A program made the translations under genes and the position numbers. The notes below the pieces were generated by a model. The model was not told the DNA's origin. It saw only the letters and a program-made list of their open reading frames with translations, and did no database searches. A stretch of 51,604 bases of DNA from Bacteroidota bacterium (GTDB lineage Bacteria; Bacteroidota; Bacteroidia; NS11-12g; UBA9320), in NCBI GenBank assembly GCA_013359235.1, contig JABWCE010000018.1, positions 1 to 51,604 on the forward strand, read 5' to 3'. Of this stretch, positions 44,301 to 51,291 are shown piece after piece (position 1 is the stretch's first letter; the number at the start of each line of letters is the position of its first letter).

Positions 44301-46376
44301 TCAAATTCTTTGAAGGTAAGTTTTTATAAACAAAGCACCTAAATTTTGATGGGGAGGAATATAATCTTTAAATTTTGAAAGAGCTTCTTTGTTCTTCCCA
44401 AATTTTTTTTCAATTGTTGTCCAAAGTTCAGCCCAGTCAATATTTTTTCCAAGTCTTAAAAATTCATTCATTTGGTAAATCACTTCATTATTTACAGCCA
44501 TAGTTCCAATTTGCTTTGATGAAATTATATGACTTTCGGGGCTTATGAGCAAAACCTTGCTAATATTATTAAAACCACCGCAACTCCCCAAAACTACAAT
44601 CCTTACATCAGGATTAAGCGATTCTATTGTAGCCCATGCGTAATAACTGTGCCCTCTATGTACAACAATAGATGCTGTACGTTTTAATTTATTAAGTGTA
44701 TCTTTTATATCTTTTTGTCCTTCGGCTTCCTTTTCGGGTTTGTTGGCATATATAATTATCTGTTTCCCTTTTTTTGGTGAAATTTTAACATAGTTTTCAA
44801 AATTTTCAATTATCCATTCAGGTTTTTTGTATGTTTCTATAAACGAAATAAAACTGTACTTACCATCATCATCATCGTAAAACATCAACTCTTCATAGCA
44901 TGTATCGTTTTTGAACAATTGGCTTTGTGAAACCGATGAAAAAGCTATAGCATTAGGATTGTTTTTACCTGAAATAACCTCTAATAGCAATTCATAAAGT
45001 TTTGATGCTTCAAAATTCCCTTTTCCGGTTACAAGATAAAAATAATTTGTAATAAGTTTTTCAAGCTGTTTTTTAGTGGCATCATCTTTCAAATTTCCAT
45101 AAGTATCAGCAACTATTACAGCATTTTCGAGGCTGCCATAATTATCTTCAAGACCTTCGCAAAACTTACGAAAAATTCTGTTTTTTTGTTCGGGTTTTAG
45201 CTTTTCAAGGATATTGTTTAATGTGTTGTAACTTGCACACATTTTTATGAAAGTTCTGAATTTGTACCAATTCTGGTTTTCTAAAAAATCATAAACCGTA
45301 GAATCAATAAGCTTAGAATTAAACCTATTGTAGAGACCAATAAATGTAGATGTATAAATTTCTGATTCGCCCAAAACTATCAAATAATAAATTTCGTTGG
45401 CTGTGAGACTACTTGTACTTGCAAACCGCACTTCGTCCTTTTGTTCATGCAAATCGTTTATTGCTCTAACCTGTTTTAAGCAAAGTTCTTGCAGTTCTTT
45501 TTCGATAGTGTATTTTGCAATATTTGATTTGCGACCAATTGCTTCCGAAAGATACTTAATATATGAAGACGGATTTGAACTTATTTGCTCGGCAATGGCA
45601 ATAGTCATTTTAATATTACAAATATCATCAAGCATAGTAAATGAACGACTTTTCATCCCTTTTTCGCTGTATATTTTAGCAAAAGCTACAAACCATTTGT
45701 TTGAAGAATTTTTAATTTTGGCACTTACTGTATTATGTGAATACATATATCCTTTTACTTCGCCGGGGGCGTATTTCACTATTTCGAGCAAAACTGTATC
45801 GGCATATTGTTTTTCACTTATTTCTTTAAAATGAGAAAGTACTTCAGTAGGGGTTACTCTTAAAATTCTAAGTAAAAAATCACCCGTTAAATTATTATTA
45901 AAATAAAATGGAAGAATTTTGAGTGAATTAGAGGGGTTTGCCGTCATTGCAGGAAATAATTTTTCTAGATCCTGTTCTATCATACATTTATTTGCGAGAT
46001 TTATTTGAGATTCGTATTGGCTTACAAATGTTATATTCTCGGCATCTATTCTCGAAAGTATTTTATAAATACATTCCAATTTTAGCAGCTTTGTTTTGTA
46101 ATCTTTTTCTCTTGTTTCAACAAGTTTTGTAAGGTCTTTTACTTTATAAAATATCAATTGTTGGATTTTGTCTGATATTTCAGTACTTTCAAGTTTAACT
46201 TTGTTGTCTGAAACAGAATCAATCAAATCAATTCTTCTCTGTTCGTTTTTTATTTTATCTATAAGGTATTTGGATGCATCTTTGGGTTGTGAAAATAATT
46301 TTGTGGAAAATAGTAAAACTATCAGAAAGCTAATTATAACATGTGATTTCAAATATTTAAAAAGTAATTCGTTCAA
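44301..46376 (-). CDS. Secreted protein of unknown function with possible clan CD-like Cys-His domain
   Basis: I do not recognise this 691-residue protein as a whole. Residues 1-29 are a signal peptide (SFLIVLLFSTKLFSQ); the start codon is TTG. Residues about 30-500 are helical and rich in Lys/Leu, with no clear repeat. The C-terminal about 150 residues alternate strands and helices: KQIIIYAN (strand), RTASIVVHRGHSYYAWATIE with His573 and His576, VRIVVLGSCGGFNNIS with Cys599, then IISSKQIGTMAVNNEVIYQM and a helix. His-Gly-type turn, then a strand ending in Cys, is the order found in caspase, gingipain and CHAT proteases. Function as a protease is inference. Confidence 0.7.
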   Translation of the reverse strand: MNELLFKYLKSHVIISFLIVLLFSTKLFSQPKDASKYLIDKIKNEQRRIDLIDSVSDNKVKLESTEISDKIQQLIFYKVKDLTKLVETREKDYKTKLLKLECIYKILSRIDAENITFVSQYESQINLANKCMIEQDLEKLFPAMTANPSNSLKILPFYFNNNLTGDFLLRILRVTPTEVLSHFKEISEKQYADTVLLEIVKYAPGEVKGYMYSHNTVSAKIKNSSNKWFVAFAKIYSEKGMKSRSFTMLDDICNIKMTIAIAEQISSNPSSYIKYLSEAIGRKSNIAKYTIEKELQELCLKQVRAINDLHEQKDEVRFASTSSLTANEIYYLIVLGESEIYTSTFIGLYNRFNSKLIDSTVYDFLENQNWYKFRTFIKMCASYNTLNNILEKLKPEQKNRIFRKFCEGLEDNYGSLENAVIVADTYGNLKDDATKKQLEKLITNYFYLVTGKGNFEASKLYELLLEVISGKNNPNAIAFSSVSQSQLFKNDTCYEELMFYDDDDGKYSFISFIETYKKPEWIIENFENYVKISPKKGKQIIIYANKPEKEAEGQKDIKDTLNKLKRTASIVVHRGHSYYAWATIESLNPDVRIVVLGSCGGFNNISKVLLISPESHIISSKQIGTMAVNNEVIYQMNEFLRLGKNIDWAELWTTIEKKFGKNKEALSKFKDYIPPHQNLGALFIKTYLQRI

Positions 46377-47647: not shown

Positions 47648-48331
47648 ATGTTTGGAATTTATGCAATTGGTATTTTGTTTTTCATTATAAGTCTTGTCGT
47701 AAGCACCAGATTGAAAAACAAATTTAAAAAATATTCTCAAATACAATTAGTTTCCGGTTTGTCAGGAGCTGAAATAGCTAATAAAATGCTAAAAGACAAT
47801 GGAATTTACGATGTGAAAGTTGTTTCGGTAGAGGGACAACTTACCGACCATTACAACCCATTAACCAAAACAGTAAATCTCAGCCAAAATGTATATTACG
47901 AAAGAAATGCTGCTGCTGCAGCAGTAGCAGCACACGAATGCGGTCATGCAGTACAGCACAGAGATATGTATGTATGGCTAAATCTTAGAAGCCGTCTTGT
48001 TCCGGTTGTAAATGCCACATCAAATGTAATGCAATGGATAATACTTGCAGGAATAATGGTTTTGGGAGCTACAAAAAACCCTACAGTATTGGTAATAGGT
48101 ATTGCATTATTTGCACTCACAACTCTTTTCAGTTTTATTACATTGCCTGTTGAATTTGATGCAAGCAAAAGAGCGCTTGCATGGATAAAAGAAAAAAATA
48201 TTGTATCGAGTTCAGAGTATGAAATGAGCAAAGATTCGTTAAAATGGGCTGCATTAACTTATGTAGTTGCAGCTATTGGTTCACTTGCTACATTACTTTA
48301 TTACATTTCATTTTTGAAAGGTGATAGATGA
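47648..48331 (+). CDS. Membrane zinc metallopeptidase (YugP-like)
   Basis: A 227-residue membrane protein of the zinc metallopeptidase family (YugP type). The active-site helix AAHECGHAVQHRDMYVWLNL has the HExxH motif (H-E-C-G-H) near residue 97. A conserved LSQNVYYERNAAA precedes it. Hydrophobic segments at about 1-18, 128-145, 147-170 and 200-220 anchor it. LPVEFDASKRALAWI holds the third zinc-ligand region with Glu/Asp. Physiological substrates are unknown. Confidence 0.9.
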   Translation: MFGIYAIGILFFIISLVVSTRLKNKFKKYSQIQLVSGLSGAEIANKMLKDNGIYDVKVVSVEGQLTDHYNPLTKTVNLSQNVYYERNAAAAAVAAHECGHAVQHRDMYVWLNLRSRLVPVVNATSNVMQWIILAGIMVLGATKNPTVLVIGIALFALTTLFSFITLPVEFDASKRALAWIKEKNIVSSSEYEMSKDSLKWAALTYVVAAIGSLATLLYYISFLKGDR

Positions 48332-48532: not shown

Positions 48533-49846
48533 ATGGTAAAAAAAATTCTAACAATATTACTTGTATTGTCATTCAATATATCATTAGCTCAAAAAACTTA
48601 TAAAATATACCTAAATACAAAAGCCGAAGATGATAAGATAAAAAAAACTCAAGCTATTATTCCGGTTTATAAATTTGAAAACACCGAAATTGAACCTTAC
48701 TTGAATTTTGGCTTTGATACTGAGAAAAAAACTAAAAAAATTAAAATAGATAAAATGCCCAAAATGGATGGTTGCACTGATACAGCTTACACATTCATAT
48801 ATTTTTCGGGTGCTGATAATAAAAAAAACTCAGGTTATATTATTTCGCTTATTGGCAACTACAAAAGAAGTCGCCAGCCTGTGTACTTTTATATTGATAA
48901 AAACAATAACCTTGATTTTAGTGACGATGGAAGCCCAGATATTCTGCCATTTGAAAGCGATACAATTGTTTTAAAACTAAAAAATCAAAAAGAAGATAGT
49001 TCAGAATACAATGTAAAACTCAGCCGAATTGTGCCAGGTAAAAACATGGCATACAAATCTCTTTTAGAAGAACATTATAAAAAACACAGCGGGTCAAAGC
49101 TTTTTACACGGATTAATTACTGCTACCGTGAACAAAGATACAATTTGAGTTCAGGTGAGTTTAGAAATTTGTCTGATTCTTTTACTATTGCCGTAAAAGA
49201 TATGAATGTGAATGCACTATTTAACGACAAAGGGCAAGACCAAATATATATTGGACCATACAAGCAGGAAATTTATGCCGAAAACATGATTGAGTATCAA
49301 TCAGGCAGAAAAAAAACAACTTTTGAATGGAATGAAAAAAAATTTCAAATAAATCAAATTGATAAACTTGGCAAATGGATTGTGATTACTGAGTTACAAG
49401 ATGTTAAAACTTATAAAAAATTAAAATTGCACCGAAAGGTACCCAAAATAAGTTTTACTACCGAAATGAACGAACATTATACTTTAAAAAAATTCAGGAG
49501 AAAAAATATTTATCTATATTTTTGGAATGACGACTTGTACAGCCTTGCTGAAGATACAATTTATCTTAGAAAATTGCAAAATGAATACAGTCGAAAAATA
49601 CAAGTAATTGGTATGAATTACGGTGACGAGCCTAAAACTATGCGTTGGTTTCAGCAGTATTACAAAATACCTTGGATAATAGGTATGTCAAACCGTGAGA
49701 TAAACCAAAAATATTTCGTTGAAAATCTTCCAAAAGGTTTTTGGATTAGCAAACGAAGAAGGCTAAAAGCAAGAAACATTAGCCCTAAACAAATGTACAC
49801 TAATGCTCAAAAAAAATTCGGCAAAAACAAAAACCTTACAAATTGA
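48533..49846 (+). CDS. Secreted protein with degenerate TlpA/thioredoxin-like C-terminus
   Basis: A 437-residue protein. Residues 1-19 are a signal peptide (ILLVLSFNISLAQ-type; LTILLVLSFNISLAQ). Residues about 20-310 have no recognised family but include DKNNNLDFSDDGSPDI near 120-140, a Ca-binding-like acidic loop. Residues about 315-437 resemble a TlpA/AhpC-TSA thioredoxin fold: NIYLYFWNDDLYSLAEDTIY, then YSRKIQVIGMNYGD and LPKGFWISKRRRLKA. The CxxC redox pair expected after the FW segment is absent (NDDLYSL). Disulfide chemistry is therefore unlikely. A binding or structural role is possible. Confidence 0.78.
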   Translation: MVKKILTILLVLSFNISLAQKTYKIYLNTKAEDDKIKKTQAIIPVYKFENTEIEPYLNFGFDTEKKTKKIKIDKMPKMDGCTDTAYTFIYFSGADNKKNSGYIISLIGNYKRSRQPVYFYIDKNNNLDFSDDGSPDILPFESDTIVLKLKNQKEDSSEYNVKLSRIVPGKNMAYKSLLEEHYKKHSGSKLFTRINYCYREQRYNLSSGEFRNLSDSFTIAVKDMNVNALFNDKGQDQIYIGPYKQEIYAENMIEYQSGRKKTTFEWNEKKFQINQIDKLGKWIVITELQDVKTYKKLKLHRKVPKISFTTEMNEHYTLKKFRRKNIYLYFWNDDLYSLAEDTIYLRKLQNEYSRKIQVIGMNYGDEPKTMRWFQQYYKIPWIIGMSNREINQKYFVENLPKGFWISKRRRLKARNISPKQMYTNAQKKFGKNKNLTN

Positions 49847-49848
49847 TG

Positions 49849-51291
49849 TTATAGCTCAGAAATTATAAATTTTCCTGTCTCTGTTTGATTGTCAGCATAA
49901 ACAAGTTTATAGAAATATAGGCCACTATTCAAATTATTGCGGCATATTAAAATTTCTTGACCATTAATATCTTTTATTTGTTTTACTATTTGCCCGCAAC
50001 TATTGTAAATATAAAAGGTTGCATTTTTTAAAATGAAACTTGTATGCAATACAGTTTGTGTTGAAAACGGATTAGGATATATAAACGCATTTACTATTTT
50101 AGTTAATGGGTAACTTCCGTTTGTAGTGTTGAGTTTTATCAGCCTTTCGTATATATTTATTTTATTATTGACAGTATCATTTGAAAGCCAAACCAAATAA
50201 AAATTATTCTCATCAATTTTATTAAAAGATGAATACGCTGAACCAAAGCCATTATGTGTGTATGCAAAAGTATCAACGCTAAAACTTTTGAAATTGCCCC
50301 AGTTGGTAGAATAAGTGAAACCTACATCTTTTTTTGTATCGTCATAAAGCGAAGAACCAATTGGTCTTTGTTCGTAAGAAATACCTACAAACCCTTTATT
50401 ATTACAATCAATATGTGCAAACTGTGAAAGTTTTTTCGAATTACTAATAAACTCTGGTGCCGACCACGTTTCTCCAAAATTTGTAGAACGTTGTAAATAA
50501 ATTTTATTTTGGCTATCATAGGTAAGATAAACATAATGTGTGTTAGTTAACTTATCAAAAGCATAAGCTATATTCGGGTCTTTTGAACTTGTCAAAAACG
50601 ATTTAGTAGGTTCAGTTGGAGGCGTATCCCACGATAATCCCCCATTAAACGACTTTCTAAACCAAACTTTTGAAGGGTAAGGTAATTCTTTCCATGTACA
50701 CAGTACCGTATCGCCAATTGCAACTATAGAAGGGAAAAGCCCATGTCCTGTTAAATTGCTCAACCTGTATTCTGATGTTAAAAATCCATTTTTAAAAAAT
50801 ACTCTATGATAAACGGCAGTATCAGAATTAGATTCTGTATGCCATGTAAAATGTATTTTGCCATTTGACGAAGCATAAATTGAAGGTGATGAAACATTAC
50901 CTGCGGTAGAAACAGTTATTACACTGCTCCAATTTTTACCTTTATCGGAAACATATCTTGCTTTAATAAAAGGACCTTCTTTCCAGCAAAGCCAAACCGT
51001 ATCTTTATTTAAAGTTAAAGTTGCAGAAAGTATATTGTTTCCCGTGTTTGCAATTATTTTTTTACGAATTCCTTCATTATTTGTGTTTAGAAAAACAGTA
51101 TCAGGATTAGAATAAACCAAAAAACGTTCTGTGTTGCTTTTGCCAGCCATTAGTTTTGTATTGTTAAAGCAAAATTGAGTATTTGTTTTTTCTAATGATA
51201 CTAATGATACAGTATCTATTTTTACTTGTGAGTAAACATTTTGTACCAACAAAACAGAAATTAAATAAACTGAAATCAATACTTTTTTCAT
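49849..51291 (-). CDS. Secreted sialidase-like BNR-repeat protein with T9SS sorting domain
   Basis: A 480-residue protein. Residues 1-22 are a signal peptide (LISVYLISVLLVQNVYSQ). Residues about 60-390 hold a beta-propeller with Asp-box/BNR motifs: SDKGKNWSSVITV, RKSFNGGLSWDTP and STNFGETWSAPEF. This matches the sialidase/BNR superfamily, but the Arg triad and nucleophile Tyr of true sialidases were not identified, so enzymatic activity is uncertain. Residues about 400-480 are the T9SS sorting domain (AFIYPNPFSTQTVLHTS ... GLYFYKLVYADNQTETGKF). It is convergent with the TlpA-like gene, 2 bp between stop codons. Confidence 0.88.
   Translation of the reverse strand: MKKVLISVYLISVLLVQNVYSQVKIDTVSLVSLEKTNTQFCFNNTKLMAGKSNTERFLVYSNPDTVFLNTNNEGIRKKIIANTGNNILSATLTLNKDTVWLCWKEGPFIKARYVSDKGKNWSSVITVSTAGNVSSPSIYASSNGKIHFTWHTESNSDTAVYHRVFFKNGFLTSEYRLSNLTGHGLFPSIVAIGDTVLCTWKELPYPSKVWFRKSFNGGLSWDTPPTEPTKSFLTSSKDPNIAYAFDKLTNTHYVYLTYDSQNKIYLQRSTNFGETWSAPEFISNSKKLSQFAHIDCNNKGFVGISYEQRPIGSSLYDDTKKDVGFTYSTNWGNFKSFSVDTFAYTHNGFGSAYSSFNKIDENNFYLVWLSNDTVNNKINIYERLIKLNTTNGSYPLTKIVNAFIYPNPFSTQTVLHTSFILKNATFYIYNSCGQIVKQIKDINGQEILICRNNLNSGLYFYKLVYADNQTETGKFIISEL

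Follow-up and report, generated by a model that had tools for sequence, protein, structure and literature searches.

Clan CD peptidases, for which a MEROPS review counts eight families as of March 2025 (PMC12445089), are described as placing the His and the Cys of the dyad each at the C-terminal end of one of two consecutive strands (PMC4357240), and Gly directly before the catalytic His is reported as a clan feature (PMC12445089). In separase (MEROPS C50), described as a eukaryotic enzyme of 140-240 kDa (PMC4852461), a helical N-terminal arm precedes the C-terminal caspase-like domain, and the human dyad H2003/C2029 has a spacing of 26 (PMC12609080, PMC9729208). Csx29/TPR-CHAT of type III-E CRISPR (Craspase) combines helical repeats with a following caspase-like domain and a His-Cys dyad; it is reported to be RNA-activated through Cas7-11 and to hold a pseudo-caspase, CHAT1 (PMC10028731), and its dyad spacing is given as 42-43 (PMC9729208, PMC10028731). 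Both separase and TPR-CHAT are described as inactive until a cue (PMC9729208). The secreted Bacteroidota peptidases of the clan include C11 (iotapain, PmC11), with the motif His-Gly...Ala-Cys (PMC12445089) and a spacing of 46 between H133 and C179 of PmC11 (PMC4357240), and the gingipain/PorU family C25, which is also exported. YabG, a bacterial His-Cys sporulation protease with an irregular residue beside the His and a spacing of 46 (H161/C207), was proposed for clan CD with no sequence homology to its members (PMC12445089).

We analyzed a window of 51,604 nucleotides, the whole stretch of DNA under study, from a Bacteroidota genome of 2.65 Mb in 44 contigs. We suggest that the product of the gene at 44301-46376 is probably an exported cysteine endopeptidase that has a clan CD-type fold and represents a new family. 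The features of the gene and its product are the following.

44301..46376, minus strand: coding sequence of the predicted exported caspase-like protein, 691 aa, TTG start, stop included (ORF listing)
46287..46376, minus strand: predicted Sec signal peptide, residues 1-30 (read from the sequence)
44937..46277, minus strand: N-terminal alpha-helical solenoid arm, residues 34-480 (AlphaFold2 model, conservation in alignments A1 and A2)
44304..44936, minus strand: C-terminal caspase/haemoglobinase-like alpha/beta domain, residues 481-691, 211 aa (AlphaFold2, VIA-align)
44865..44873, minus strand: acidic loop D502-x-D504, then G505, after the first strand of the domain (D502 and D504 in 105 of 105 distinct homologs)
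44646..44660, minus strand: HRGHS motif, residues 573-577 (all five residues identical in 103 of 105)
44658-44660, minus strand: H573 (kept in 105 of 105)
44649-44651, minus strand: H576, proposed catalytic base (kept in 103 of 105; H576L in two)
44574..44588, minus strand: GSCGG motif, residues 597-601 (invariant in A1 and A2)
44580-44582, minus strand: C599, proposed nucleophile (kept in 105 of 105)

The open reading frame, strand, length and residue numbers (H573, H576, C599) given in a previous sequence-only reading agreed with the sequence, and the quoted motifs ASIVVHRGHS, VRIVVLGSCGG and HIISSKQIGTMAVNNE were all present. Five of the six members examined in the window's genus (the window gene and L001-L006) have no ATG that keeps the signal peptide, L003 alone having one, so the start is TTG or another codon. 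The gene is flanked by an RluA pseudouridine synthase family gene and a dTMP kinase gene, with MurB and HtpG close by (NCBIfam). Further along the window we detected a membrane protein of 227 aa that carries an HECGH (HExxH) motif, is zinc metallopeptidase-like by eye and has no NCBIfam match (47648-48331), and an exported protein, one end of which weakly matches a ResA-like thioredoxin (48533-49846) and which adjoins a T9SS type A cargo protein (49849-51291, NCBIfam TIGR04183).

The signal peptide and long helical N-terminal arm of the sequence-only reading were borne out, by the sequence and by the AlphaFold2 helices of residues 34-480, respectively. The signal peptide has no lipobox cysteine, and our guess is that it would be cleaved after Gln30. 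A crude hydrophobic-segment test was positive in 68 of 79 family proteins of at least 600 aa, the window protein counted; of the 11 that failed, most lay close to the threshold or were artefactual because of the start chosen, and one belongs to Patescibacteria. The Patescibacteria copies with an available start appeared leaderless by eye. On the signal peptide alone, the Bacteroidota members would be placed in the periplasm or outer membrane. The T9SS type A C-terminal sorting domain (TIGR04183), matched by the neighbour at 49849-51291, was absent from the window protein in the NCBIfam search. Within the arm, conserved blocks were found near residue 50 (RID..D) and at 307-384 (INDLHE...RFA, EIYTSTF.G and KMCA.YN) in A1 and A2, and residues 296-472 gave weak importin-alpha-like structural matches (Z 6.8-7.5, VIA-align). 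The C-terminal domain was not detected outside full-length members: a class-wide search of 247 genomes gave matches in 11, all belonging to the full-length family.

Conservation was counted on 156 hits from Bacteroidota and Patescibacteria, reduced to 105 distinct rows by removal of repeats. The conservation of the motifs is far beyond chance: HRGHS is identical in 103 of these rows, and within it the remaining two differ at H576 only. G575, the Gly directly before the His, was found in all 105 rows, and so was Ser577 directly after it, where clan CD has Gly (the His-Gly motif); because of this Ser we name the family clan CD-like and not a settled clan member. The spacing of H576 to C599 is 23 residues. 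Neither motif varied among the 22 sequences of A1 or the 78 of A2 (built from the best 80 of 438 loci minus the truncated proteins L042 and L103 and minus L110), and A2 is otherwise variable, with a mean column identity of 39%. Four Azospirillum proteins, counted apart from the 105 rows, all carry HRGHS and GSCGG; three of them were included in a nine-protein alignment spanning three phyla, whose members are 19-39% identical to the window protein and in which D502, D504, G505, H573-S577, G597-G601, G624, N629, W648, W652, F669, Y672 and P675 are invariant, among others. D502 and D504 were retained in every one of the 103 homologs with an intact His, in the two H576L copies, and in Azospirillum and Patescibacteria, and this loop possibly forms an S1 pocket or a metal site.

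The two exceptions at H576 are tandem second copies beside an intact gene; homologs without the His or the Cys, which the sequence-only reading had listed as contrary evidence, thus amount to these 2 of 105. At L084 (2927-5990) and L093 (3026-6029), a copy of about 1000 aa lies directly upstream of a normal copy and reads HRGLS, H576 being replaced by Leu and C599 kept. The loci L055, L066 and L068 have the same tandem layout with HRGHS retained, and on the tree their long copies group with the His-less ones. Of 28 domain positions conserved at 95% or more in the other 103 rows, the His-less copies keep 24 (23 in one copy); H576, K621, Q622 and L679 are altered together in both, and G680 also in one. 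This looks like a pseudoprotease that arose once in a duplicated lineage, and the second-copy status of the HRGLS forms suggests that it is the loss of H576 that turns the product into a different protein.

These copies bear on the possibility that the whole family is a catalytically dead clan CD-like scaffold, that is, a binding module using the dyad region for ligand binding as pseudo-caspases do. Ser577 in place of the clan CD Gly agrees with such a role, and H576L with C599 kept in two tandem copies indicates that loss of the His can be tolerated in a second copy. However, both dyad residues are present in 103 of 105 distinct homologs and in the four Azospirillum proteins, their retention amid sequence as variable as that of A2 is what catalysis predicts, and the His-less copies found adjoin an intact one. 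We therefore consider a dead scaffold unlikely, and the option of a degenerate relative, raised in the sequence-only reading, is unsupported for the main family.

The preferred reading, a cysteine endopeptidase with a clan CD-type fold, was supported by structure prediction. The AlphaFold2 model of the full-length protein (A2) had a mean pLDDT of 90.6 and pTM of 0.83, and that of the domain alone (A3, 33 sequences) a pLDDT of 92.9 and pTM of 0.90. The first half of the modelled domain consists of strand 492-499, helix 503-515, strands 521-525, 529-534 and 539-545 and helix 547-563; the dyad region follows with strand 570-574 and then H576, helix 577-585, strand 593-596 and then C599, and helix 601-611; the domain ends with strand 616-620, helix 626-641 and three further helices. 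Thus the predicted alternation of strands and helices in the C-terminal part is present in the model, with the domain starting near residue 490 rather than at 540. H576 and C599 are each modelled directly after consecutive strands, as in clan CD; at this level of secondary structure, a fold with the two residues far apart, the other contrary outcome listed in the sequence-only reading, was not seen. The order of elements along the predicted chain fits clan CD, with no sixth strand longer than two residues seen in the model.

VIA-align, for which best Z values of 7 to 8 are common according to the tool documentation, placed separase first for the full model (5mz6, Z 9.6, 158 residues, 3.6 A), followed by the C11 iotapain (6nag, Z 8.2, 178 residues, 3.8 A), Csx29 (8eex, Z 8.1), the Craspase TPR-CHAT (Z 7.8-7.9) and the first GTPase (Z 7.8). 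With the domain alone, Csx29 8eex ranked first (Z 8.9, 144 residues, 3.5 A), and the matches below it included iotapain (Z 8.1, 178 residues, 3.9 A), GTPases from Z 7.8 down and caspase-6 and -7 (Z 7.1 over 162 and 156 residues). The lead over GTPases is narrow: separase exceeds them by 1.8 Z units and the other top clan CD entries by 0.3 to 1.1. Foldseek alone placed FeoB and small GTPases first, with a best E of 5.6e-4 for the domain; for the full-length model every E exceeded 0.001. The P-loop consensus is GxxxxGK[ST]; the sequence after the first strand is FYDDDDGKYSF, which has no P-loop, and we rejected a GTPase reading of the Foldseek matches. The caspase-like fold suggested by the sequence-only reading was moderately supported, the best structural neighbours in the VIA-align comparison being clan CD peptidases, closely followed by GTPases; we assign the fold class with moderate confidence and regard a clan CD-like domain fold as quite likely.

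No Pfam model exceeded its cut-off for the window protein, NCBIfam gave no match, and PDB sequence searches with the protein, the full profile A2 and the domain profile A3 returned nothing usable, separase not being among the chain matches. Pfam matched neither CHAT, C14, C25, C11 nor separase to the window protein, CHAT PF12770 being absent even at E 10, and these families were not among the Pfam families listed in searches with 22 and 33 members (for the latter, the best 25 of 35 families). The profile comparison with CHAT, C14, C25 and C11 proposed in the sequence-only reading, done by hhalign with profiles built from Bacteroidota genomes (29, 19, 20 and 4 sequences, respectively), yielded no significant match; over this and the two comparisons that follow, C14, C25 and C11 gave E 0.15-0.9. 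With context gene families and reversed profiles as decoys, CHAT had the best score among 38 profiles (E 0.014, against 0.034 for the best decoy), C599 falling on the CHAT Cys. When Azospirillum and Patescibacteria sequences were added, GATase_3 ranked first of 40 (E 3.1e-4, 28 columns) and CHAT second (0.019). We do not claim sequence homology to CHAT, its matches at E 0.014-0.019 covering 19-20 columns and lying near the decoys. The case for clan CD is therefore an argument from fold and motif, not from sequence homology. A protein with a CHAT domain above the Pfam cut-off was detected in the same genome (G000:C29:36771-37577, in a 1727-aa open frame also matched weakly by the C25 model); it is a gene separate from 44301-46376. 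In the open-licence literature, searched with motif strings as well, we recognised no description of this family.

The GATase_3 match raises the alternative that the domain is a relative of the class I glutamine amidotransferases (GATase_3/CobQ), an amidase or transferase of flavodoxin-like fold with C599 in a GxCGGYQ-like elbow. Of the 33 domain members, 6 matched Pfam GATase_3 weakly (best E 0.0016), and its profile ranks first because LGSCGGY resembles GICGGYQ, the query GSCGG lying on GICGGYQ. The similarity is limited to a short stretch at the Cys, and the profile is thin (5 sequences, Neff 2.2). Class I glutamine amidotransferases require His and Glu downstream of the Cys, but beyond C599 no His or Glu is conserved in 80% or more of the 103 rows, only D671 being so (95 of 103), and both invariant His precede the Cys, which is the clan CD order. 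A decoy profile that we take by eye to be CTP synthase, an enzyme that includes a class I GATase domain, produced no match in the C599 region, and no GATase appeared among the best 50 VIA-align matches, an absence that does not amount to exclusion. An amidotransferase origin is accordingly improbable, more so than a dead scaffold.

We return to the endopeptidase reading and its relation to the described systems. Like separase, the window protein has a helical N-terminal arm and a C-terminal caspase-like domain, and the separase spacing of 26 is, by the cited figures, the nearest to 23 among the enzymes compared. In contrast to separase, which has Gly after the His, the window protein has Ser577, is only 691 aa long, is predicted to be exported and gives no sequence match, and its model has no second (pseudo-caspase) alpha/beta domain. 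The separase-like layout may thus hint at how the protein works, not at separase identity. The layout of Csx29/TPR-CHAT is also shared, whereas the signal peptide, the spacing of 23 and the lack of a PADLOC match set the window protein apart. C11 ranked second in the VIA-align comparison but gave no profile match; C25 likewise gave none, and the window protein has no T9SS type A tail. By its description (PMC12445089), YabG resembles the window family in a clan CD proposal made in spite of absent sequence homology and in an odd neighbour of the His. Peptidases of the caspase fold that combine a His-Cys dyad with a helical arm are a known kind of protein; what the libraries searched do not cover is the family, its exported context, the GHS motif and the short spacing. 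The new family of exported, periplasmic or surface cysteine peptidases envisaged by the sequence-only reading gains support from the dyad, the fold and the missing Pfam and NCBIfam cover, as a predicted peptidase.

By analogy with these enzymes we infer how catalysis, specificity, activation and role might be arranged. C599, where the fourth core strand ends, would act as the nucleophile and H576, which closes the preceding strand, as the general base, with an oxyanion hole possibly formed by backbone amides around G575-S577 and C599-G601. The helical solenoid would hold the catalytic domain and probably bind a substrate or regulator, as in separase and TPR-CHAT. Since the two enzymes that share this layout are both cue-activated, a regulated, site-specific cut is the natural guess, and once cued the protein would cleave at just one or a few specific sites. 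The D502/D504 loop may select a basic residue before the cut (P1), and metal binding is equally possible. The least probable alternative, an autoproteolytic processing domain that would act once to release the arm or the domain during export or maturation, the arm being the effector, agrees with the autoprocessing or self-regulation reported as common in clan CD (PMC4357240, PMC12445089), with arm and domain being in one protein and with the lack of a conserved adjacent partner gene, but no conserved cleavage-site motif is evident between arm and domain, residues of about 470-490 being variable in A1.

Homologs were detected in 41 of 58 genomes of the window's genus, family and order, its own genome counted. 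A phylum-wide draw of 395 genomes contained 14 carriers, namely the same genome and 13 of one further family (f4). In GTDB 220 contigs, 438 stretches encode relatives, and among the best 80, which were fetched, the named carriers include Chitinophagaceae, Saprospiraceae, Flavobacteriales and one Peribacteria MAG, most being MAGs. In Patescibacteria, 2 of 286 genomes searched carry family members: a Peribacteria genome of 1.1 Mb with two copies (including G656:C12:21198-21806, L228, and L110), one of which is on a 33.7 kb contig beside rnc-, nusB- and rpmF-like genes (by eye), and a second genome with one copy (G737:C1:83123-83629). On the tree, the Patescibacteria members form a group close to the long Bacteroidota copies, which suggests transfer between phyla. 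Four Azospirillum megaplasmids carry a more distant relative (E about 4e-29 to 5e-24), annotated as hypothetical protein; L231, L233 and L234 share a neighbourhood of a DUF1194 protein, the family gene, a LysE transporter and a GGDEF protein.

The neighbourhoods of the fetched loci were ordinary and chromosomal in look. The commonest neighbour by eye was a SpoU/TrmL-like methyltransferase gene, found at 41 of the best 80 loci and absent near the window gene, followed by PPK2-like genes at 14 and RecQ-like genes at 11; no partner gene recurs throughout the best 80 of 438 loci. We read the Bacteroidota gene as vertically kept and chromosomal, and not as part of a toxin or defence module. A role in a defence island or CRISPR was rejected, PADLOC giving no match for the window protein, and so was a phage role, no phage record or viral contig holding a relative and the best PHROGs E being 0.69.

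Taken together, this is an unnamed, widespread and very probably clan CD-like family with an intact dyad. A more specific hypothesis, which we offer tentatively as quite possible, is that of a compact exported separase-like endopeptidase family new in clan CD, with a helical arm, a minimal caspase core, GHS in place of GHG and the shortest His-Cys spacing among the enzymes compared, distributed in Bacteroidota, Patescibacteria and Azospirillum and regulated in some Bacteroidota by a tandem His-less pseudoprotease. Another clan CD family widespread in environmental Bacteroidota would add an exported, regulatory-type protease to these organisms, and the natural His-less tandem copies allow a protease to be compared readily with a pseudoprotease. 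The occurrence of a separase/TPR-CHAT layout beyond both CRISPR and eukaryotes is relevant to the origin of separase-like architectures.
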